Shown here one piece after another: positions 1,122 to 37,196 of a stretch of 41,322 bases of DNA. The notes under the pieces were generated by a model that worked only from the letters and a program-made list of their open reading frames with translations, did no database searches and was not told the DNA's origin. The DNA comes from an uncultured Clostridium sp. (GTDB taxonomy: Bacteria; Bacillota; Clostridia; TANB77; CAG-508), in assembly GCA_946409935.1 (NCBI GenBank), contig CAMJYG010000018.1:1-41322 (forward strand). The letters run 5' to 3'. Each line of letters starts with the position of its first letter. Position 1 is the stretch's first letter. The translations under genes and the position numbers were made by a program.

Positions 1122-1925
1122 TTATTTGATTTTTGTTCCTCCCCATTCAACTAAAACAAATCCTTTTCGTTCTGGAGTAATCAAATCTTGCTCTTTTATT
1201 TCTATGTATTCCTCTAATGGTTTAAATTCCATCATAATCCTTATAATTGAATCTGGTCTTTTACTTATTTCTAACGGCATATTTTCATCAATTTCTTCTT
1301 TTGTTTGAAATCTAATATAATTGTATTTATTATTTTCCATCTGCGGAAGCCAATAAATTATAAACTCATTTGCTTCTCTTTCTGATAACCCTAAAACTTT
1401 CAACTTTTCTTCCATAAATTTTATTGTATCTATACCTTTTACGCAAAAACCTTCTTCCATTTTATCATTATAATTTTTTTCATTTATACCTTCCCAATAT
1501 AAAGCATAAAGATTTCTCCCTGTCTTGCAATCTATCAAGTCTCCATTTGGCTTTGCAATTACATTCCAACTTTCTTCATATTTAGGATATGTATATAATA
1601 AATTTTCTTGTTTCCCAAGTTTTACAGTCAATTCGGTTTCTTCAGTTGGATATAAATATATAATTGGCTTTTTCACATCTATTGTTCTATGAGGCATCCT
1701 ATTGTAGCTATTATTACTACTATTTTGATTGTTATTTATTGTATTTTCGTTATTATTTTGATTTAATTCTGCATTTGTACTACTATTTAATGATGTATTC
1801 ATATTTTTTAAATTATCTTCCTTTGAATTTATACTCACAAGTATTAAATATGCTATAGAAACGAAACAAATTAATAATACTATTGTACATAAATTAGCTA
1901 TTATTTTTCTATTCTTCCCATCCAT
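1122..1925 (-). CDS. Membrane-anchored conserved extracellular protein
   Basis: 267 residues. An N-terminal helix (about residues 10-30) is followed by an Asn/Ser-rich linker (about 35-75) and a globular region starting KKPIIYLYPTEETELTVKL. The later features TYPKYEESWNVIA, YALYWEG, the FCVKG segment, FIIYWLPQME and FVLVEWGG resemble an uncharacterised Gram-positive secreted family that I recognise by its KPxIYLYP start but cannot name functionally. The linker composition fits a cell-surface tether. The start has a strong AAAAGGAGAAAAGAA site. It lies 18 bases after the propeptide-like gene, so the two are probably cotranscribed. Confidence 0.7.
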   Translation of the reverse strand: MDGKNRKIIANLCTIVLLICFVSIAYLILVSINSKEDNLKNMNTSLNSSTNAELNQNNNENTINNNQNSSNNSYNRMPHRTIDVKKPIIYLYPTEETELTVKLGKQENLLYTYPKYEESWNVIAKPNGDLIDCKTGRNLYALYWEGINEKNYNDKMEEGFCVKGIDTIKFMEEKLKVLGLSEREANEFIIYWLPQMENNKYNYIRFQTKEEIDENMPLEISKRPDSIIRIMMEFKPLEEYIEIKEQDLITPERKGFVLVEWGGTKIK

Positions 1926-2920: not shown

Positions 2921-3147
2921 TCATATATGTAATATTTTCTTTATTGCTTTTATTATTTTATTGTAAAAACGTTCTTTTTTCACTATAATCAGCATTTCTG
3001 CATTATTACACTTTTCTATTTCTTTATCAGATTTCATTGCAAATAATTTATCTGGATTATACCTTGCTCTTTTTTCTTCTTCAATATTTTTCATATCATT
3101 TTGCATTTTTGCTTTAATCTTTGCTTTTTGTTCTGGACTTGAGTAAG
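2921..3147 (-). CDS. 3' exon of an intron-split conjugative-element gene
   Basis: This is the downstream half of a small acidic protein. The open frame runs from the intron edge through SSPEQKAKIKAKMQNDMK and EEEKRARYNPDKLF to a basic tail. An internal ATG at 3106 might allow a 61-residue fragment to be made alone. Joined to the 5' exon at 5044-5266 it gives a protein of about 150 residues with the order KENYPKAYTEVLEI ... NIFRDYW | AYSSPEQ ... I recognise this as an accessory protein family of Clostridia mobile elements, function unknown. The exact splice base is uncertain by up to 7 nt; frames agree for ends at 3142 or 3148. Confidence 0.6.
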
Positions 3148-5043
3148 GTAGACGTAGCCATTACTGACTACACCCCTTTCAGACCCGTACGTGCGGCTTT
3201 TCCGCATACGGTTCCCCGTAATACATTACATTCTATCATAAATATTTACATATATTTTTGGTGTTAATAAGGGATAGTGTTTTAGCATTTGCGCAAATTC
3301 TTCACTCGTGTAACTTCTTCGTTGACTTCTTCTATTAAGCCATTTCCAAAGTAATTTATTTATGCAAAACATGAAATTGTGTATTCTTTCATAATTATCT
3401 GTAACACCATAATATTGATAATGACCTCTAAGTTTTGTATTTACCATTTTTATGAGTTCTCTTACTTTAGTATGTTTGTTCTCTTTAATCCATATTTTGA
3501 ATTCTTTTATTTTTGCTTTAAATTTCTTCCTTGATGTCTTCCTTTTAACCCTAAATTTACCTTTGGTGCTTTTACTGCAGTAGTGTGTAAATCCTAAGAA
3601 ATCAAATGTTTCTACTCTACCATCTTTGCTATTTGATTTTGCATATCTTCCAAATGCTATTAATCTAGTTTTGTCTTTTGCTAATTCTAAATTAAATTTC
3701 TTTAATCTTTCTGGTAGTAGTTCGTTTATAAATAGTTCAGCTTCGTTTTTGTATTGAAAACAACATACAAAATCATCAGCATAAGCTATAATATAGCTTT
3801 CTCCTGTAAAGTTCTTTTGCACTTTCTTTTCAAACCATAATATCAATACATAGTACATATATATATTTGCTAATATTGGACTAAGTATCGAGCCTTGTGG
3901 AGTTCCTTCCGTTGTTTCTATATATTGTGTCTTTTCTACAATTCCTGCTTTTAGAAATCTTTTTATTAGTCTAATTATTCTTGGGTCTTTTATATGTTGT
4001 TCTACACATTTTATTAACCATTTATGGTCAACATGGTCAAAATAACCTTTTATGTCCGCATCAACAATATAACTTACTTTCTTCCTTTCGATTGTCCAAC
4101 TTAGCTCTTTTAGAGCATCATGACAACTTTTATTTGGTCTAAATCCGAAACATACATTTTGGTAGTTTAGATTCAAAAATTGCTTCAATTATCTTTTTTA
4201 GTGCCATTTGTACTATCTTGTCTTCATAATTAGCTATTGCTAAACCTCTCATTTTGCCATTTGCTTTTGGAATATATACTCTTTTGGATGGCGATGGTAT
4301 AAAACTCATACTTTGTAATTCATTTTCTAATTGTTCTAAATTACTCTCTAGGTTTTCTTCATATTCAGCTTTTGTTACACCGTCTAGTCCTGTTGCTTTC
4401 TTCCCATCAATTTCTTTATGACATAACATTAGTAGGTCTTTATTTAGGAAATGATAAATTGATGTAAATACTTCTTTTGGTCTTTCTTTTGATATCTCTG
4501 TTATTCTCGCTAATTTCGTTTCCATTATATTTTGTTGTTTCAGCTTCTGCGTTTTACTCCTTTCTAACTCTGTGTTTAGATAATGTGTCTTTAACAAGAG
4601 CTGTATTACGTAAGTCCCTTTTCTCCTCCAAGTTTATTATTCTTGGTATCAACAATAATATGGACTTATATGACTGCCAATACTTCGTTTAGTTCCTTTC
4701 TTACGATTGTTACCTATACCTAAAAAATTTCTAGGAAAGTATTGGCTCTCGCCGTTCATTGCATAGTCATTGTATATCATGATTAGGTCTCCGACCACGC
4801 AAGAGCAATGTAAAGCCTTGCCAAAATTGCTTTATATTGTATTGTTTTCCCACGTTGGGAACTGGTCAACCTCTTGATATTTATTGAGAATTTCGTGGCT
4901 CAATACTAACCCTAATACCTAACTGTCTACGCTTAGCATTCAATATTACTATTAAATACCCAAGACTCGCTACTGGTGGTTTGGCTAGAACCTTTCCAGA
5001 TGGGATTTCCACCTATTAAACTATGCAACCTGCACGGTCGCAC
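3148..5043 (-). mobile_element. Group II intron
   Basis: On the minus strand the element begins GTGCGACC (5043 downward), the usual group II 5' end. It carries a reverse transcriptase/maturase (3226-4597) and then domain V at 3182-3214 (GAACCGTATGCGG, AAAA loop, CCGCACGTACGGGTC), followed by a domain VI-like hairpin and a 3' end CTAC near 3148. About 440 nt upstream of the protein (4600-5043) form the domain I region. It lies in the sense direction of the interrupted gene, so splicing can restore its protein. The reverse transcriptase is frameshifted, so mobility probably needs help in trans. Total length about 1.9 kb; the 3' boundary is uncertain by a few bases. Confidence 0.85.
3226..4597 (-). 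pseudogene. ltrA: Group II intron reverse transcriptase/maturase, frameshifted
   Basis: Two overlapping frames make up one protein. The 5' part (4597-4139) carries the N-terminal RT motifs (KKATGLDGVT, PKANGKMRGLAIANYEDKIV). The 3' part (4188-3226) continues CFGFRPNKSCHDAL, DADIKGYFDHVDH, GTPQGSILSPILANIY, the active-site AYADDFV, FDFLGFTH and a domain X segment LRGHYQYYGVTDNYE. No HNH endonuclease domain follows. The break lies in ATTTTTGAAT near 4180-4190, where the family has IFE-x-KFL. A 14-nt deletion between TTTTTGAA repeats explains the frame change. The intron may still fold but probably cannot make a full maturase from this copy. Confidence 0.85.
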
Positions 5044-9619: not shown

Positions 9620-9695
9620 ACCCATCTCTCCTTAATTTCTATTTGAGGAGAGTATATCATATTTTTTGGTTTTTGTCTTATGTGTAAAAAATTTA

Positions 9696-9725
9696 TTGAC
9701 TTTTTTATCAATTTTGGTATATAAT
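9696..9725 (+). promoter_or_regulatory. Promoter of the antitoxin-like RNA
   Basis: TTGACT at 9696-9701 and TATAAT at 9720-9725 are separated by 18 bases. Transcription would begin near 9732, at the start of the RNA described next. This is the best plus-strand promoter in the region. Confidence 0.7.
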
Positions 9726-9731
9726 AGATAT

Positions 9732-9830
9732 AGAAAGTAAGCAATTACAAGAATGTAGTTGCCCATTATATTATTTGGAAACTACACATTGCTATGTAAT
9801 GCCAATTTAAGCAATGTGTAGTTTTTTATT
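9732..9830 (+). ncRNA. Candidate antitoxin RNA of a type I toxin-antitoxin locus
   Basis: An RNA of about 100 nt is expected between the promoter at 9696-9725 and a strong terminator, AAACTACACATTGCT (9779-9793) pairing with AGCAATGTGTAGTT (9810-9823) followed by six T. It runs convergently to the toxin message and overlaps its 3' end by about 50-60 nt. Its 5' end (TATAGAAAGTAAG ... ATGTAGTTGCCC) nearly repeats the toxin message's 5' end. The layout matches type I loci of Clostridia and the Fst/par type, where a convergent RNA blocks toxin synthesis. No coding frame is seen in it. Confidence 0.65.
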
Positions 9831-9936
9831 TTATTTGCTTATTTATCCATTGTATGTATAAAATACATAGCAAGGCTAAATTTATTGTTATTGATACTAT
9901 TAATCCTATAAATAGGAATGCTAATATTTCTAACAT
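9826..9936 (-). CDS. Candidate type I membrane toxin, 36 residues
   Basis: A 36-residue protein: MLEILAFLFIG, a hydrophobic core spanning one membrane helix (residues 4-27), then IQWINKQIK with a basic end. This charge pattern is typical of type I membrane-depolarising toxins. The start ATG is preceded by a very strong AGGGGGTGAGGCT. A long leader of about 75 nt contains the sequence shared with the antisense RNA. The stop lies at the edge of the shared terminator. Alternatives are a small stress membrane peptide or a leaderless fragment, but paired convergent promoters argue for toxin-antitoxin. Confidence 0.65.
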   Translation of the reverse strand: MLEILAFLFIGLIVSITINLALLCILYIQWINKQIK

Positions 9937-10017
9937 AGCCTCACCCCCTAACTCTTGATAAGAAATCAAGGTCGAGGGCAACTACACATCTGCTTAACTT
10001 ACTTTCTATACACAGGT

Positions 10018-10046
10018 ATTCTATAATATTATTTTAATTATGTCTA
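10018..10046 (-). promoter_or_regulatory. Promoter of the toxin message
   Basis: On the minus strand TAGACA (10046-10041) and TAGAAT (10023-10018) are 17 bases apart. The start of the message would fall near 10010, exactly at the inverted copy of the antisense RNA's 5' sequence (9998-10010). Confidence 0.5.
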
Positions 10047-10065
10047 TAATATTTAAAAATATTTA

Positions 10066-10958
10066 TTATTTTTTTGTATTTTTATTGTGATTATGAATAA
10101 CTATATAACCAATTCCAAATAAAGATACTATCATAGCTCCAGCAAATAATTTTATCCTGCTTTCATCTCCTGTTTTAGGAACTTCTATCTTTTTATTTTC
10201 AAAAGTAAATTCTATTGTGCTATCTGTTTCTTCTACTTGTTCGTCATCTACGAATATTCCTTTGTCATTTATTTCAACTTTTGCTACTCTGCTAGATAAT
10301 TCATAATCTTTTGGAGCTTTTATTTCTTTGATGTAATATGTACCATATCTTAATTCTTCAAATAAAGCTGTTCCATCTTCTTTATTAGATTTAACCTCTT
10401 TGATTAGTTTTGTACATTCTGGATCTTCATAAATACAAAAAATATATTTATCTTTAATAATTTCTTTAGTTTCAGAATCTCTGCCTGAATATCATCATCT
10501 CTAAATGTGGCACTACTTTGTCCTAAAATTTCCCAAATATATTGTTGAGTTAAAACATATTGTTTTTTATCTTCGTATGAAGTATTAATGTTTACAACAT
10601 AATCTCCATAATTTTTATACCATCCAAGATAAGCTATTTTACAAGCTCTTATCATATTTGGATCTGTTGGAATATAATAACTTCCACTAACTCTAACTCC
10701 TGGTTTAAAATCCACTCCATGTTCTGAACAAAATACTGTAATTTGCTCTCCAGTTTCTGAATTTACTAATCTTCTGATTAACATTCCATTTGAATTTGCA
10801 GAATGGTCTGTTGTTCTTATTCCTGAATAATATTGACCACCTACCCATGTTGCTGTTCCGCTTCCAGATACAGCAAATATAGGCTGTGTTATACTTAATA
10901 TTGTTATTATTAATAAAATAACTGCTAAAATTCTTTTATATTTTAATATTTTTATCAT
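10066..10958 (-). pseudogene. Thioester-domain (TQXA) LPXTG-type surface protein, frameshifted
   Basis: The 5' part (10958-about 10490) encodes a signal peptide (residues about 8-30), then a thioester-type domain with FCSEHGVDF (reactive Cys) and TQQYIWEILGQ (the TQ pair). Near IQAE the frame changes, and DSETKEIIKDKYIF starts a SpaA/prealbumin-like repeat. The C-terminus has the sorting signal VPKTGDE, a membrane helix and a basic tail, ending TAA at 10066. Intact relatives are long adhesins that bind host ligands covalently and are anchored by sortase. Here the stalk is collapsed and the anchor is out of frame, so an anchored protein is not made. Assembly collapse of repeats is an alternative. 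Confidence 0.75.
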
Positions 10959-11166: not shown

Positions 11167-12117
11167 TTATCTAGAACTTCTTTCTTGTCTCAATTTTTCT
11201 CTTTTATTATGCTCTTCCACACATTTAATAATAAAATCTTCTACTTTTCCAGATTTTTTAACTTTGGTTGGTATATATTTTTCTATTCTTTCATTGTGTA
11301 TCTTTATAAATTCTTTTTGATTTGGTTTTTCTTGTCCTAAAATCTCCTCTATTTTTTCTTCTGTTAAATTTCCTTCTTGCTCAAGTTTCTTCAATCTTAT
11401 TGCTTGACTTAATGAAGGGGTAGCTTCATCAAATTCAAATATATTTAGAACTACATATTGATTTTCTTCACTTAAATAAGATAATTCTACTGCTGGTCTA
11501 AATGCTATTCTTTTTAAATCAACTTGTTCTAATAATTCTGGTACTAGATATGTAAGACGAATGTATCTTCTTATATTTTCTCTACTTTCTCCAACATTTT
11601 CTCCTAGTATTTCCCTTGATGTCAACTTCGGCACCATTGGTGCAGAAGTTTCGTTATCATAAATATCTATATTTTTCCCTTGATGTTTCATAGCTTCAAG
11701 CTTCATTTTATATGCAAATGCTTTTTCACTTGGCAATATTTCTTCTCTTTGAATATTACTATCAACCATTAAAATTGTAGCTTCATCATCTGTCAAGTTT
11801 TTTACAATACATCTTATTTGTTTTACCCCTGCAAGTTCACAAGCTCTTTTTCTTCTATGTCCAGAAACCATTTCATAAGTTCCATCTTCTTTAGGTCTAA
11901 CTATAACAGGTAGTATAACTCCATATTCTTTTACACTCTTGACCATTTCTTCCATTTTATCATCATTTACAACTTTAAAAGGATGTTCAGGAAAGTTTGA
12001 AATTTTACTTATGTCTATTTCTTCAACTTTTTCTGCCTTTTCATAATCTCTTTGAGCTTGACTTGTAAATAAATCATCTAACTTTGGAAGTTTCATTTTT
12101 TGTTCTTGTTTTTCCAT
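11167..12117 (-). CDS. parB: ParB-type partition protein
   Basis: 316 residues. The N-terminal ParB domain has DISKISNFPEHPFKV, the loop LPVIVRPK and the CTP/DNA-contact motif SGHRRKRACE. A central helix-turn-helix region (LTSREILGENVGESRENI) follows, and then a basic, charged C-terminus. Start ATG 12117 has AAAGGAGGT; the gene overlaps the end of parA by 44 bases, so the pair is coupled. The role is segregation of an element copy by loading on parS-like sites. Its neighbours are element genes, not gyrase or rsmG, so this is an element-borne copy. No parS was identified. Confidence 0.9.
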   Translation of the reverse strand: MEKQEQKMKLPKLDDLFTSQAQRDYEKAEKVEEIDISKISNFPEHPFKVVNDDKMEEMVKSVKEYGVILPVIVRPKEDGTYEMVSGHRRKRACELAGVKQIRCIVKNLTDDEATILMVDSNIQREEILPSEKAFAYKMKLEAMKHQGKNIDIYDNETSAPMVPKLTSREILGENVGESRENIRRYIRLTYLVPELLEQVDLKRIAFRPAVELSYLSEENQYVVLNIFEFDEATPSLSQAIRLKKLEQEGNLTEEKIEEILGQEKPNQKEFIKIHNERIEKYIPTKVKKSGKVEDFIIKCVEEHNKREKLRQERSSR

Positions 12118-12892
12118 TGTCTAGTACCTCCTTTGCAAGATTTTCATAGGCTAAAGCCACAGAACTATTTTTATCAAACTCAAAAATACTCTTACCTGTA
12201 GAGGTAGCTTTTGCTGTGTTTATAGCTTTTGGAATTTCAGTATCATATATTTTTACATATTGTCCATAATTTTCTGCTAATGTATTTCTTACATCTCTTG
12301 ATAAATTTGTTCTTTTATCTACAAGTGTAAGTAATACTCCTCCAATTTTTAAATTAGGATTAATTTGCTTATGAACTCTATTTACCGTTTTTAATAAATG
12401 CCCCATACCTTTAGCAGCTAAATATTCTCCTTGTACTGGAATAATAATATTATCACTACAAGCTAGTGCATTTATTGTAATCATTCCTAAACTTGGCATA
12501 CAATCAATTAAAATATAATCATAATTGTCTTTTATGCCTCTTATAGAATTTTTCAGTGTAAACTCTCTACTCATTGCATTAACTAATGAAAACTCTATTG
12601 CTGATAAATCTAAATTTGAGGGAATTAAATCAATTCCCTCTTTATGATGAAGTATCGTTTCTTCTATTTTTACTTCATTATCACATATTGTATCAGACAT
12701 TAATGTTCCAATGGTATTTTGCAATTCGTCTTGATTATAGTATCCCATACAAGTTGTTAAATCTCCTTGCGGATCTGCATCAATTAATAAGACTTTTTTG
12801 CCCTGTTTAGCGAGAGCTACACCTAAAGAAAAAGTGGTAGTCGTTTTTCCAACCCCACCTTTTTGGTTTGCTATTGCTATAATTTTACTCAT
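12074..12892 (-). CDS. parA: ParA-type partition ATPase
   Basis: 272 residues from ATG 12892 (AAAAAGGAG 7 bases upstream; the frame continues farther but without a site). It has the deviant Walker A NQKGGVGKTTT (about residues 9-19), DADPQGDLT and a Walker B IDCMPSLG. It hydrolyses ATP while moving ParB-bound DNA on the nucleoid. The start overlaps the end of the 201-residue gene by 8 bases, and its end overlaps parB, so three genes are coupled. It probably stabilises the integrative element in its circular state. Confidence 0.92.
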   Translation of the reverse strand: MSKIIAIANQKGGVGKTTTTFSLGVALAKQGKKVLLIDADPQGDLTTCMGYYNQDELQNTIGTLMSDTICDNEVKIEETILHHKEGIDLIPSNLDLSAIEFSLVNAMSREFTLKNSIRGIKDNYDYILIDCMPSLGMITINALACSDNIIIPVQGEYLAAKGMGHLLKTVNRVHKQINPNLKIGGVLLTLVDKRTNLSRDVRNTLAENYGQYVKIYDTEIPKAINTAKATSTGKSIFEFDKNSSVALAYENLAKEVLDNGKTRTKNETSKVR

Positions 12893-13490
12893 CGGCATTC
12901 TCCTTTTTCTTGTTAATATAAACATAAGGAAATGATTTTTCAAATGTATCTTCATAATTAGCATTATATTCTATACAGGTAATATATTGTTCAACTGCAT
13001 CATTTATTGCATTTAAAATATCCTCCTCACTAACATTAGAAGAATCAGCATATTTTAATCCTTTAATAACACCATTTACTAATACCATATCTTCCATTTC
13101 AAACTCATACAACTTTTCTAAAGCAGGTAAATCTTTTTCGAATGAATCTGTATGTAAAATTTTATACACCAATTCCATTAAATCCATTACGGCAAATAAA
13201 TGTCTATTTCCTATAAATTCCTCTTCAACTTCTTGCTTCTTAAATAATTTTTTTGTGTCTGACTCTTTTTTGCATTGTTTAGCATATTTGTTAATTATTT
13301 TTCTTGTTTTCTTACAATTAGATTCAGTTATTTTTATTAAATCTCTAAAATCTAATACTCTTTTAACTTTGTTTAATAAATCTGTTTTCATTAATTGATA
13401 TTCTTCTAATGCATAAATTCTTCTTTGCATTTGAATATATCTAAATAATTCTTCTTGTGTAAAATTCAATAAATTTTTTTCTTGTTCCAT
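12885..13490 (-). CDS. Element protein cotranscribed with parAB
   Basis: 201 residues, mostly charged and helical, with a likely coiled region (NKVKRVLDFRDLIK, KKTRKIINKYAKQCKK) and an acidic C-terminal half. No signal peptide or known domain is seen. AGAGAGG precedes the ATG. Its stop overlaps the parA start, so it may assist partition or replication of the element. Its first 32 codons and upstream terminator are duplicated at 20113-20300. Confidence 0.65.
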   Translation of the reverse strand: MEQEKNLLNFTQEELFRYIQMQRRIYALEEYQLMKTDLLNKVKRVLDFRDLIKITESNCKKTRKIINKYAKQCKKESDTKKLFKKQEVEEEFIGNRHLFAVMDLMELVYKILHTDSFEKDLPALEKLYEFEMEDMVLVNGVIKGLKYADSSNVSEEDILNAINDAVEQYITCIEYNANYEDTFEKSFPYVYINKKKENADE

Positions 13491-13520
13491 TTTTACCTCT
13501 CTTTCTTGGAGGCATAAAAA

Positions 13521-13550
13521 AGAAGCTAATCTATTTCTAAATTAACTTCT
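13521..13550 (-). terminator. Terminator after the RhuM-Fic gene
   Basis: On the minus strand AGAAGTTAAT and AGATTAGCTTCT pair around a short loop, followed by six U. The same hairpin is present in the duplicated copy near 20255-20285. Confidence 0.6.
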
Positions 13551-13597
13551 ATTTGTTAGATATTATTTCAATAACCATATTTATATAAGATTAAATT

Positions 13598-14542
13598 TTA
13601 TTCATTATTCAAAAAATTCATTACTAAATCTATAATAACATCTTTTTCTTTTGGATTAGATTCTGCAATTAAAAGAGTTAGCGCTGCTAAAGTATTATTA
13701 TCTATGACTTGTCTATCATCTTTATATAATATATTGTAAAAATTCAAAAAGTAAATAAATAATGTTGCAGCTATTCTTTTATTTCCATCTGCAAATACAT
13801 GATTCTTTACAATTAAATACAAGAAATTTGCACCTTTTTCTTCTATACTTTTATAAATATCTTGTCCACCAAAGCTTTGATAAATATTTCTTATAATAGA
13901 TTCCAATCCTCTATCTCTTTCTACTGCAAATAGTGAACTTTCTTCATTAAATTTAAGTTTATTAATTATTTCTATGCAATCGCTGTATTCAATTTTTCTT
14001 TCATCTATGTTTCCTTCGATTTTTTTAAGAGTTCTATGGTCATAATCGTCTAGTAAATCTAATGCTTTTGAATATTCTCCAATTACTTTTAATATTTCTT
14101 TTGCATCATTCCCTTCTAAACGCTCATCAATTCTATTTGCAATATCTATTAATTTTATTGTTTTTTCTAAATATTCCAGTCTTTTTTGATTTACTGCGTA
14201 ACCTTTTAACATATAATCTTTTAATATTTTATTTGCCCATTGCCTAAATATCACACCATTTTTGGATTTAACACGATACCCCACCGATATAATTACATCA
14301 AGATTATATAATTTAGATTTTCTTCCTCCAGAACTTTTGTCGGAAATTCCGACAGAAGTTTTTTCATCTAGTTCACCCTCTTTAAAAATATTATTAATAT
14401 GTTCACTTATGGTTGCATGTTTTACATCAAATAATTTCTCCATTTGTGCTTGAGTTAGCCAAACAGTTTCCTCACTTAAATTTACCTCTAATTTAACTCC
14501 TTGATTTTCAAATAAAATTATTTCATTATTTTTTTCATTCAC
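13598..14542 (-). CDS. RhuM-Fic/Doc family protein
   Basis: About 314 residues from GTG 14542, chosen because GAGAGGA lies 9 bases upstream; the open frame extends to 14632 without a site. The N-terminal RhuM-type DNA-binding part reads VWLTQAQMEKLFDV, SEHINNIFKEGEL, NLDVIISVGYRVKS. The C-terminal third has a complete Fic motif HVFADGNKR, which in active enzymes transfers AMP or another phosphate-linked group to proteins. No inhibitory S/TxxxE/G helix was located with confidence. Such proteins act as toxins or defence factors on mobile elements. The last about 25 residues recur at 20335-20420 fused to DUF402. Confidence 0.85.
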   Translation of the reverse strand: MNEKNNEIILFENQGVKLEVNLSEETVWLTQAQMEKLFDVKHATISEHINNIFKEGELDEKTSVGISDKSSGGRKSKLYNLDVIISVGYRVKSKNGVIFRQWANKILKDYMLKGYAVNQKRLEYLEKTIKLIDIANRIDERLEGNDAKEILKVIGEYSKALDLLDDYDHRTLKKIEGNIDERKIEYSDCIEIINKLKFNEESSLFAVERDRGLESIIRNIYQSFGGQDIYKSIEEKGANFLYLIVKNHVFADGNKRIAATLFIYFLNFYNILYKDDRQVIDNNTLAALTLLIAESNPKEKDVIIDLVMNFLNNE

Positions 14543-14639
14543 AATATCACATCCTCTCTTTTTTATAGTATTATTTTTCTTATCCAAAGTCACAAACTTT
14601 TCTGTTATCCATTGTAGCTGTAGTGTTTTCAATCCTCCG

Positions 14640-34012: not shown

Positions 34013-35578
34013 TTAAATGTTAAAAATTCCTATATCTGAAAAATTAAATTTTACACTTATTTCTTTATCAAATACTTCAATCCTCTTAATCAGTTCTTCA
34101 AACTTTATATCTTTAAAATCCTTTTTTTCAAGTTTTTCAAGTTTTTTTAACACAGATTTCTTTTGGCTTAAAGTATTTAATTCTTTATTTTTATTATTTA
34201 TTTCAATTTCTTTATCAGTTATATCTTCTGATAATTCTTTTCGTTTTTCTAGTAAAACTTTATATCTGCTTTTATATTCTTCTTCGGTTATTTTATTTGA
34301 TAATCTTTGATTATACAATGATGTGATTTTAAAATTAATCTTGTCAAGAGTAGCTTTTAGTTTTTCTAATTCAATTTCAATGCTTTTTATTGCCTCGTTA
34401 GCTGCTTTTTTATAAAGGTTGTCCTTTATTTTATTATTTTTTAAATATTCTTTATAAATATTAGATATGTACTCTATAGTCTTACTTTCTATTAAATTAT
34501 AATCAATTTTGCAATCATTTGAGCATAGTCTAGGATTATCACTATTGTTTCTGCAATAAACATAAACTTTTTTCCTTGCATTTTTAAAAATAAGTTTTTG
34601 GCCGCAATTTTTACAATATATAAAATTTTTTAAAAGATGTGTATTTTCTTTTATTTCTCTTGTTAAACCATATTTTTTTGTACTATGAACTTTTTCAAAT
34701 ATCTCTTCTGATATTATCGCATCATGAGTATTTTTTGTTACTATAAAATCTTTTCTCTTAACGAAAATTTTATCCTTTGACTTATAACTAATCTTTTGTG
34801 TTTTCCCCCTTACTGTGTACCCTAGATAAACTTGATTTCCTAAGATTTTAGTCACAGAACTTCTTCTCCACACATCTTTATTCTTTAAATTTTCGAGTCC
34901 CTTTATATTCATATATTGTGCAGGAGTTAAATAATTATTCTTTTCTAAATATTCAACTATTTTGTTACATGTATACCCTTGCAATTTAAGTTCAAATATT
35001 TTCTTTACAGTTTTGCTTGCTTCATCATCTATTATTAATTTACCTGGTAATTCTGGATCTTTTTTATATCCAAAGGGGGCGGTTGTGCATGCATAAAAGC
35101 CATCTTCCATCCTTTTTCTTTTTGTTCTCTTTACTGCAATAGAAGTATCTTTGCAATGTTTTTCATTAAATACTGATTTTATTGGCATAAAATCGTTACT
35201 AGAATTATCACAAAAGTTATCTATATTATCTAATATAGCAAGATATCTAATGCCATGGTCTGGAAAATATTTTTCTATATAATTTCCTACTTCAATATAG
35301 TTTCTTCCCAACCTAGCTAAATTTTTTGTTATTACCATATTAATTTTTTTATTTTCTATATCTTGTATTAACCTTTTAAATGATGGTCTATTAAAATTAG
35401 CTCCACTATATCCATCATCTACATATTCTTCGAATAATATCATATCATCATGTTTTTCTATGTAATCCTTGATTATTTTTCTTTGATTAGTTATGCTTTC
35501 GCTTTCTTCTCTATCTCCATCATCTTTGCTTAGTCTTAAATATATGCCAACATTATAAATCATTTTTGGGCTCACCAT
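34013..35578 (-). CDS. Large serine recombinase (second of the pair)
   Basis: 521 residues. The resolvase domain holds the nucleophile in VGIYLRLSKDDGD (Ser17), then EEYVDDGYSGANFNRPSF. KNLARLGRNYIE has Ala where most have Ser. A recombinase domain (GFYACTTAPFGYKKD), a zinc ribbon (YCKNCGQKL ... YCRNN ... LCSNDC) and a long coiled coil (about 380-470) follow. Start ATG 35578 has GGAGGACAAATAG and lies inside the end of the previous recombinase, a 26-base overlap. Such enzymes integrate and excise elements at att sites. The pair may act together. Confidence 0.9.
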   Translation of the reverse strand: MVSPKMIYNVGIYLRLSKDDGDREESESITNQRKIIKDYIEKHDDMILFEEYVDDGYSGANFNRPSFKRLIQDIENKKINMVITKNLARLGRNYIEVGNYIEKYFPDHGIRYLAILDNIDNFCDNSSNDFMPIKSVFNEKHCKDTSIAVKRTKRKRMEDGFYACTTAPFGYKKDPELPGKLIIDDEASKTVKKIFELKLQGYTCNKIVEYLEKNNYLTPAQYMNIKGLENLKNKDVWRRSSVTKILGNQVYLGYTVRGKTQKISYKSKDKIFVKRKDFIVTKNTHDAIISEEIFEKVHSTKKYGLTREIKENTHLLKNFIYCKNCGQKLIFKNARKKVYVYCRNNSDNPRLCSNDCKIDYNLIESKTIEYISNIYKEYLKNNKIKDNLYKKAANEAIKSIEIELEKLKATLDKINFKITSLYNQRLSNKITEEEYKSRYKVLLEKRKELSEDITDKEIEINNKNKELNTLSQKKSVLKKLEKLEKKDFKDIKFEELIKRIEVFDKEISVKFNFSDIGIFNI

Positions 35579-37196
35579 CTATTTGTCCTCCTACACAATT
35601 CAATTCATAAAAATTAAAATAAATAACAGCATTTTTATTTTTATCTATTTCAATTCTATTTACTAATTGATTTATAATTTCTTTGTTAAATTTTTTGCTT
35701 TTTGATAACCTCGTTATAATTTTTTGCATATCATCTTTTATTCTTTTTTGCGTATAGTCTTCCTCAAAATCATTTAATTCACTTTGCGACTCACCTAAGA
35801 CTTTCTCAATTCTGTGTCTTTGATTAACTAATCCTTCCGAAAACATTTTAAAATCCTGTTCTTCTATTATTCCATTTAATTTATCTTCATATAAAGTACT
35901 TATTTTCTTATTGACAATTTCTAAATCCTTAGTCAATTGTTTTATTTTTTGTTCAATTTTTCCTTTATTACCTTGTGAATCTAGTAACTTTTTCAAAGCT
36001 TCTTCATCTTTAAAAGCATTTGAATTTAAATACATTTCTAATGTTTCAGATATTTTTGAAATAGCTTTTTCTTCAAATTCATCATAATTAATATATCTTC
36101 TATAACATTTTTTATTTGAATACTTTTTTATAGCGGTATTACACAATATATATCTTCTAATTTTTTCTCCATTTTTTCCTTTGTCTGCTTTTACTCTAAT
36201 TGACAGCCTATTATTACATTCTGCACAATATAATAAACCTTTAAATAATACATCAGTATCTCTAACTTTTGTGTTTTTACTCTTCTTCAACATTTCTTGT
36301 ACTAAGTTCCATTTATCTATATTTATAATTGGCTCATGATGATTTTGAGTTATTGTGTGTTGTTCCTCTGGCAAAGCTATCATTTTTTTACTTTTATAGC
36401 TTATTTTTTTCTTTTTGTTTTGTACACAATTACCAATATAAATTTGATTTTCAAGAATTCTTCTAATTGTGTTATGATTCCACTTATCTGTAGTACTTGT
36501 TAAATGGTTAACCACACAAGTCATTTTCATTTGAAGACCTGGTGTCTCTACTCCTTCATCTGTTAATAAATTTGCTATTTGATACGTTCCTTTTCCATTA
36601 AGAAATAATTCAAAAATTCTTTTAACTACACCAGCTTGCATCTCATCAACTTCGAGATTTCCAGCTTTGTTAATTTTCTTATATCCAAATGGAGCATATG
36701 TAGTGTAATAAAAACCTTCTAATCTTTTCTTATTTTTAGTTTTTCTTATATTTTTTGAAGTTTCCTTTGCGTAATAGTCATTCATTATATTTTTAAATGC
36801 AACTGTATCACAATTTCTATCTAAAAAAGTATCAACATCATCTAATATAGCAATATATCTTATTTCATTTTCTGGAAAGTAGTTTTCTATATATCGCCCT
36901 GTTTCTATATAGTCCCTGCCCAGTCTTGATAAGCTTTTCGTAATCACCATATTAATTTTTTTGTTTTCAATATCTTTTATCATTCTTTTAAAACTTGGTC
37001 TATTAAAATTTGTGCCTGTAAATCCATCATCAATGTATTCTTCATATATTTTGTATTTATTTTCTTTAGCAAATGCCTTTAATATTTTTCTTTGATTTAC
37101 AACACTTTCGCTTTCTTCTCTATCACCATCTTCCTTGCTTAAACGAATATAAATTGCGGCATTATATTCTTGATTATTTTCTTTTTCGATGTTCAA
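35553..37196 (-). CDS. Large serine recombinase (first of the pair)
   Basis: 547 residues from TTG 37196 with TAGGAGGCTATT. AAIYIRLSKEDGDREESESV carries Ser20; KSLSRLGRDYIETGRYIENY is complete. The recombinase domain YAPFGYKKINKAGN, the zinc ribbon LYCAECNNRLSIRVK and a C-terminal coiled coil follow. It is about 40% like its downstream partner by eye, and the two overlap, so they should be made in equal amounts. Pairs of this type occur at one end of Clostridia integrative elements. Confidence 0.92.
   Translation of the reverse strand: MNIEKENNQEYNAAIYIRLSKEDGDREESESVVNQRKILKAFAKENKYKIYEEYIDDGFTGTNFNRPSFKRMIKDIENKKINMVITKSLSRLGRDYIETGRYIENYFPENEIRYIAILDDVDTFLDRNCDTVAFKNIMNDYYAKETSKNIRKTKNKKRLEGFYYTTYAPFGYKKINKAGNLEVDEMQAGVVKRIFELFLNGKGTYQIANLLTDEGVETPGLQMKMTCVVNHLTSTTDKWNHNTIRRILENQIYIGNCVQNKKKKISYKSKKMIALPEEQHTITQNHHEPIINIDKWNLVQEMLKKSKNTKVRDTDVLFKGLLYCAECNNRLSIRVKADKGKNGEKIRRYILCNTAIKKYSNKKCYRRYINYDEFEEKAISKISETLEMYLNSNAFKDEEALKKLLDSQGNKGKIEQKIKQLTKDLEIVNKKISTLYEDKLNGIIEEQDFKMFSEGLVNQRHRIEKVLGESQSELNDFEEDYTQKRIKDDMQKIITRLSKSKKFNKEIINQLVNRIEIDKNKNAVIYFNFYELNCVGGQIDGEPKNDL

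Follow-up and report, generated by a model that had tools for sequence, protein, structure and literature searches.

A candidate type I toxin-antitoxin module of uncultured Clostridia with a predicted end-to-end closed toxin mRNA and a leader-mimicking antitoxin RNA

Within 41,322 nucleotides (nt) of DNA from an uncultured Clostridium sp. of the GTDB lineage CAG-508 (assembly GCA_946409935.1, contig CAMJYG010000018.1, positions 1 to 41,322 of the forward strand; the whole of this stretch is hereafter called the window), a short locus is probably a chromosomal type I toxin-antitoxin module whose toxin mRNA is closed by a panhandle and whose antitoxin RNA mimics the leader of that mRNA. The putative toxin, delineated by open reading frame (ORF) calling, family alignment and signs of selection, is a hydrophobic peptide of 36 amino acids with a tryptophan near its C-terminus, MLEILAFLFIGLIVSITINLALLCILYIQWINKQIK, read from 9936 to 9826 of the minus strand and preceded on that strand by a Shine-Dalgarno (SD) sequence, AGGGGGTGAGG, at 9939-9949, the core of which is kept across 58 aligned leaders. 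Site search and promoter profiles place a toxin promoter, TAGACA-17-TAGAAT (10 of 12 consensus positions), at 10018-10046 of the minus strand, with a predicted start at about 10006 that is uncertain by a few nt, and an opposing antitoxin promoter, TTGACT-18-TATAAT (11 of 12), at 9696-9725 of the plus strand, from which sequence and folding predict an antitoxin RNA of ~97 nt (9733-9829, plus strand). The original prediction, made from the letters of the window, had named the hydrophobic ORF, its ribosome site and both promoter-like sites, and these are present at the places it gave. The two promoters are the best two of eight promoter-like sites in the region and, given a mean of 4.8 such sites in shuffled sequence, either one taken by itself carries little weight; since single matches mean so little, the case for a module rests on conservation. 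The layout is beyond chance, as it recurs at other places of this assembly and also in its relatives; the mimic leader with its end-to-end mRNA pairing goes beyond what had first been described.

Relatives were collected with a degenerate pattern scan of GTDB-species genomes, which returned at least 114 loci. Together with the loci found first, the scan supplied 128 ORFs, some of them one locus under two names; the duplicates L007 and L029 had been left out, as had two of the 130 pattern matches, which lacked a start codon. The 114 of these 128 loci that were at least 430 nt long were dereplicated to 62, the 14 shorter ones having been dropped beforehand, and 60 members make up the peptide alignment and profile. 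Four of the 62 were left out of the tests of 5′-end similarity, duplex energy and anchored pairing (58 loci; one fewer for the inner helix, for want of an anchor), and six of the 62 out of the tree reconstruction and the folding of full-length mRNAs.

Over their first ~33 nt, the toxin mRNA and the antitoxin RNA are near-identical, and they change together locus by locus. At their own locus the two RNAs share 8.16 of their first nine positions, against 6.47 when loci were permuted (58 loci; 0 of 5000 permutations). As the two RNAs converge and begin with the same sequence, the 5′ end of the toxin mRNA complements its own 3′ end, provided that the message extends as far as the antitoxin start. 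Duplex energies, pairing counts and folding define the two arms of this predicted panhandle in the window: a 5′ arm at 9975-10006 of the minus strand (leader nt 1-32), which nearly replicates the 5′ end of the antitoxin RNA, and a 3′ arm at 9733-9765 of the minus strand, which is the complement of that end. The duplex between a leader and its own 3′ end averaged -34.0 kcal/mol across the 58 loci, compared to -25.2 kcal/mol with swapped ends, a value as low as the native one being reached in 0 of 3000 permutations. The own 3′ end was not always the best partner (median rank 3 of 58, first in 14 loci). Pairing on the opposite strand averaged -27.0 kcal/mol and was weaker than on the mRNA strand in 56 of the 58 loci.

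Counts of anchored pairs agreed with the duplex energies. Standard pairs made up 96.2% of nt 1-9, compared to 86.2% upon permutation (0/5000) and to 62, 60 and 56% when the arms were slid by 1-3 positions; for the inner 12 nt the corresponding values were 78.8% native, 72.4% permuted and 41, 34 and 42% slid. RNAalifold, run on MAFFT alignments, had been uninformative for the leader because subfamilies misalign, and the anchored counts were used instead. One parsimony reconstruction, on a tree built without the arms, yielded 27 double changes between AU and GC, 20 changes to G-U and eight to A-C, six of the eight falling at nt 1, a position affected by the uncertainty of the start. Mismatches between the arms favored those that the toxin mRNA would tolerate as G-U: A-C mismatches numbered 28 in native and 56 in permuted pairings, and G-U pairs 136 and 144, respectively.

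These counts bear on the strongest competing explanation, an ordinary convergent type I module of the par/Fst or TxpA style, devoid of a panhandle, the similar 5′ ends of which would be a by-product either of start sequence common to the two promoters or of gene conversion acting on inverted repeats. Such a module would equally display the convergent layout, the shared terminator and the buried ribosome site described below; promoter function could give both RNAs the same start sequence, and gene conversion would also change both ends together. We nevertheless hold this explanation to be unlikely, in that the 5′ similarity is specific to the locus and the A-C class is halved in native pairings while the G-U class is kept, an asymmetry that neither promoter sequence nor gene conversion predicts.

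The preference for the mRNA strand recurred in a second set of 20 loci encoding divergent toxins, mostly ending in LYKNWVDKQLHK, with duplex energies of -36.5 on the mRNA strand versus -22.4 on the other (20 of 20 loci), -10.4 with shuffled leaders and -33.3 with swapped ends (0/3000 permutations). Three of 23 loci had been excluded from this set for lack of both anchors and L169, without a recognised ORF, had been dropped earlier; the 20 loci are close relatives of each other, with no more than 11 different leaders and 12 different 3′ ends among them. The second set also includes L172, which represents a third and more divergent type. Upon folding, the 274-nt RNA of the window was predicted to close end to end (z -8.5), as were 53 of 56 native mRNAs. 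Co-variation and folding, the two lines of evidence available here, both point to long-distance pairing of the 5′ and 3′ ends.

Several observations weigh against this proposal. Swapped 3′ ends still closed in 112 of 166 folding tests, from which it follows that closure is only partly locus-specific, and the permutations of loci used throughout leave the relatedness among loci in place. Removal of the last 42 nt lowered the mean unpaired probability of the SD from 0.132 to 0.065, with rises above 0.1 in two of 56 mRNAs and falls in 18; since trimming is thus predicted to leave the ribosome site buried, a simple hok-like switch by 3′ trimming is unsupported. Inspection by eye, no systematic scan having been made, revealed no clear terminator for a long toxin mRNA. 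When leaders were paired directly with antitoxin RNAs, the cognate partner had a median rank of 26 of 56. Finally, the contamination of the source assembly (2.1 Mb in 88 contigs; estimated completeness 97%) is estimated at 8.14%, so that some of its eight module copies may be foreign.

The leader also harbors a local hairpin, predicted at 9944-9979 of the minus strand in the window and in 58 leaders, that would bury the SD. The predicted unpaired probability of the SD across these leaders had a mean of 0.067 and a median of 0.007, compared to 0.315 and 0.287 in shuffled leaders (P 1e-21). The stem varies by compensation (CTCGA/TCGAG, CTTGAT/ATCAAG, CATAGT/ACTATG, GATAGC/GCTATC); it amounts by itself to modest evidence, because comparable stems occurred in 47% of shuffled leaders as well, against 93% of native ones. 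Taken as folding predictions, these values are consistent with translation being restrained by mRNA structure.

On the antitoxin side, sequence, folding and U counts identify a hairpin at 9779-9824 with a T run that extends to 9827 (9779-9827, plus strand), which is shared by both transcripts and has a strong U tract in the antitoxin direction only. Read in the antitoxin direction, 55 of 59 loci had at least seven U in an 11-base window at the stem base, compared to three of 59 in the sense direction. The terminator of the original prediction is present as a hairpin, but the toxin message probably does not end there as had been supposed: the sense U tract is weak and the conserved pairing needs ~45 nt more of mRNA, which makes it likely that the message passes the shared terminator. 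A simple terminator scan with a loop limit of 8 missed this hairpin and returned instead one near the 5′ end of the antisense RNA (9741-9762, plus strand), which folding also predicts; the antisense RNA of the window as a whole folded with a z of -6.3. As judged from sequence, an antisense unit with its own promoter and its own terminator appears to overlap the toxin transcript. Direct recognition of the cognate leader by the antitoxin RNA was tried as a candidate and was weak (RNAduplex: -18.2 for native, -17.8 for swapped and -15.7 for shuffled sequences); shorter leader and antitoxin segments gave a cognate preference that was small, though significant by permutation.

Across the family, the antitoxin promoter has the consensus TTGACA-TATAAT and the first hexamer of the toxin promoter is weaker. 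Conservation fades past about -60 on the toxin side and -40 on the antitoxin side. The motif GTTCGC directly precedes the -35 hexamer of the toxin promoter in 21 of 56 loci, not including the window copy, and may be a regulator site. A count of promoters by regular expression (antitoxin 68, toxin 21 of 119) proved too strict and was superseded by profiles. The latter were trained on dereplicated loci of the very set scored, with the exclusion by eye of four loci with a replaced leader and of three others whose antitoxin stretch was missing or shortened by a continuing ORF; the cut was set at 10 bits, and shuffled sequences never scored above 5.8 bits. Eight of the 128 loci lay at contig ends and were not scored. 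Among the remaining 120, both promoters were found in 111, the antitoxin promoter only in seven, the toxin promoter only in none and neither in two.

The seven antitoxin-only loci represent six independent cases at most, as L030 and L049 are identical in sequence. One of them, L003, is a toxin copy of the source assembly in which a group II intron match (1690-1828, minus strand) overlaps both the leader and the beginning of the ORF, and the antitoxin promoter remains; in L088, another of the seven, the ORF is a remnant with the end of a tRNA gene immediately upstream. In L055, L073 and L106, the toxin ORF is broken early or lacks a start codon and both promoters are kept. One-sided decay of this kind is as predicted for a toxin with its antidote, though the numbers are small. 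The peptide itself, judging by its substitutions, is under purifying selection, with a dN/dS (nonsynonymous over synonymous substitution rate) of ~0.26 (mean dN 0.091, mean dS 0.347) for the N-terminal part outside the search pattern, over 557 non-independent pairs 80-98% identical. It would accordingly qualify, on sequence grounds, as the kind of small hydrophobic gene under selection that is looked for in type I toxin-antitoxin systems.

That the peptide might be a small regulatory or stress membrane peptide under antisense RNA control, and not a poison, strikes us as improbable. The C-terminal tail fits this possibility, its net charge being zero in 36 of 60 members, positive in 23 and negative in one; the basic C-terminus ascribed to the window peptide is hence no trait of the family. 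The possibility is at odds with the asymmetric loss, toxin-only loci being absent from the 120 scored, with the broken or startless toxin ORFs in loci that retain both promoters, with the patchy distribution of the module and with its several copies per genome. Together, the conserved peptide, the antisense unit, the buried ribosome site and the asymmetric decay lend strong comparative support to the type I reading proposed at the outset.

The source assembly contains eight module ORFs. A search with the DNA led to five further places: those on contigs C9, C45, C15 and C29 have an ORF in the same arrangement, and that on C22 is a remnant; the peptide profile added C8, C4 and C34. Leaders are altered in the C45 and C4 copies. 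Among 80 matches listed from the pattern scan, the taxa named were Clostridia, as uncultured or metagenome-assembled genomes, Clostridium, Clostridiaceae and Eubacteriales, with Bacilli once. The peptide profile had matches in 65 of the 117 genomes searched in the genus and, in a sample of the taxonomic family, in 148 of 292 genomes and 29 of 39 genera. In a sample of the order (287 genomes), four genomes from three other families matched, and in one of the class (341 genomes), there were seven matches, six of them in the same family, including the source assembly, and one outside the order. With an E value of 4.6e-4 and an internal stop, the latter was taken as chance; the module is not convincingly present outside its order in the 341-genome class sample.

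Searches of Pfam, NCBIfam, PADLOC, PDB and Rfam returned weak matches below cut-off or unrelated families, none of them credible, and the three peptides scanned against PHROGs gave weak or unrelated matches only. DNA and protein searches for a phage or plasmid origin gave no match, and no viral contig matched the core pattern exactly. Nor was there a recurrent neighbor gene, at most four of 62 loci having one neighbor family in common. Scattered copies of this kind and the inverted 5′ ends would suit a small mobile element resembling a miniature inverted-repeat transposable element, with the inverted ends as transposition signals, which we regard as very unlikely given that conservation runs past the inverted ends through both promoters before fading and that the G-U asymmetry points to RNA.

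In the panhandle model that we favor, the toxin mRNA would start near 10006 and encode a 36-residue peptide expected to insert in the membrane, with the ribosome site kept closed by the conserved leader hairpin as a guard on translation. The full mRNA would pass the weak sense terminator and extend to ~9733; that its 3′ end is set there by a collision at the opposing promoter is a guess. As the co-variation suggests, the first and the last ~33 nt of this mRNA would pair with each other. By protecting both ends of the mRNA, closure would maintain the pool of stable message on which type I toxins depend. The opposing promoter, which matches the consensus better, is predicted to produce the ~97-nt antitoxin RNA, which complements the whole 3′ end of the mRNA and the first third of which copies the leader that it would displace; by replacing the leader on the 3′ arm, it would form a long duplex leading to degradation or to lasting silence. 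Should the supply of antitoxin RNA fall, the stable mRNA would slowly open and the peptide would be made. With the opposing RNA copying the front end of the message, a self-poisoning peptide may be under a double RNA lock. On the chromosome, such a module might stabilise DNA regions or act in the response to stress or to phages. More tentatively, and at somewhat less than even chances, the loci may belong to an extensive type I family of Gram-positive bacteria whose antitoxin RNAs mimic the leaders of their toxin mRNAs. Leader and antitoxin would then compete for one 3′ arm; the mRNA would either be closed on itself and stable or be held by the antitoxin, and the ribosome site would be guarded by a hairpin of its own.

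The convergent layout resembles that of par of pAD1 (Fst/RNA II), for which the available portions of the sources describe convergent RNAs, a common terminator, a membrane peptide of ~33 amino acids and a stem-loop at the 5′ end that hides the ribosome site (PMC7472228, PMC8167048); the present loci likewise appear to pair a toxin mRNA with a small convergent antitoxin RNA over a common terminator, and have a short peptide and an SD-hiding stem-loop. A tryptophan between helix and C-terminal tail, a feature of Fst/Ldr peptides, may have a counterpart in the tryptophan present in residues 26-33 of 40 of 60 members (tryptophan or tyrosine at the motif in 51 of 60). In contrast, the [PDST]xxxG membrane-helix motif of Fst/Ldr was found in 0 of 60, and no Fst/Ldr model was among the matches of these members up to E 10 in libraries that should include such models, a result to be read with the knowledge that HMMER filters drop most weak hits. 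In par, moreover, direct repeats lie at the 5′ ends of both RNAs (PMC8167048, PMC4147584, as far as consulted), which makes those ends complementary, whereas the repeats here are inverted and both RNAs begin with the same sequence.

Closure of the toxin mRNA by a 5′-3′ long-distance interaction has been described for hok and aapA (PMC6733600, PMC8167048, in the parts consulted), where local SD hairpins act as an additional lock (PMC6733600). The present mRNAs would resemble those of hok/sok and of aapA/IsoA of Helicobacter in both respects, closure being a prediction here; unlike this family, hok and aapA are Gram-negative systems. In aapA, it is the 3′ end that masks the SD, which is freed by trimming, whereas the SD of the present loci is covered by a local hairpin and would, by prediction, stay buried upon trimming; antitoxin mimicry of the leader does not figure in the portion of PMC6733600 consulted.

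Type I modules of Clostridioides difficile (CD2517.1-RCd8, CD0956.2-RCd10 and others) also consist of convergent, overlapping transcripts present several times per genome (PMC6563280, PMC7699646, in the sections consulted), as the toxin and antitoxin units described here are predicted to do in another Clostridia chromosome. The original prediction of a known Clostridia type I architecture holds in this respect, for the convergent layout; it does not extend to the family, in that no library family was matched credibly. The C. difficile toxins, of 34-59 amino acids with charged, lysine-rich tails, are set apart from the present peptides by description only (same sources), and several of their modules lie in prophages or near arrays of clustered regularly interspaced short palindromic repeats (CRISPR), whereas no phage or plasmid match was found here and CRISPR arrays were not searched for. 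In Bacillus subtilis, TxpA/RatA and BsrG/SR4 have a 3′-overlapping antisense antitoxin and a ribosome site sequestered by base pairs (PMC6562991), as predicted for our loci. The available part of that review contrasts mRNA processing in Gram-negative bacteria with ribosome-site sequestration in B. subtilis, and makes no mention of end-to-end closure. Searches of the open-licence literature, covering top-ranked matches only, retrieved no paper on this family and none on a closed type I toxin mRNA in Gram-positive bacteria. We know of no earlier type I toxin mRNA closed end to end in these bacteria.

Next to the locus, at 10068-10958 of the minus strand, lies an LPXTG-type surface-protein gene (named by eye) that seems internally deleted; the parts joined near 10480/10481 lie ~3.0-3.6 kb apart in several relatives (e.g. 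G078, G051, G805, G105). A search for an empty site beside this gene gave no clean one, and target duplication or an empty site was established neither way. Near homologues of the same gene, contig G074:C39 carries a module of the other toxin subfamily (L192), and G017:C1:92348-92449 a module match, the module itself not having been read. Farther away in the window, all on the minus strand, are group II intron RNA matches at 3143-5009 with a reverse transcriptase/maturase ORF at 3226-4188; ParB- and ParA-like genes followed by a protein with RhuM and Fic matches at 11167-14632; and two adjacent large serine recombinases at 34013-37196, possibly the end of a mobile element.

The analysis adds a common peptide family without a name in the libraries searched, matched in about half of the genomes sampled from an uncultured gut Clostridia family (148/292) and represented by up to eight ORFs in a single assembly. 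The proposed module would join two control schemes usually described apart, the convergent layout of par/Fst and the closed mRNA of hok/aapA, and, if true, would to our knowledge be the first type I toxin mRNA closed end to end in Gram-positive bacteria. The antitoxin RNA would then be kept matched to its target, both RNAs having to fit one 3′ arm, an idea that the co-variation of the arms makes directly testable.
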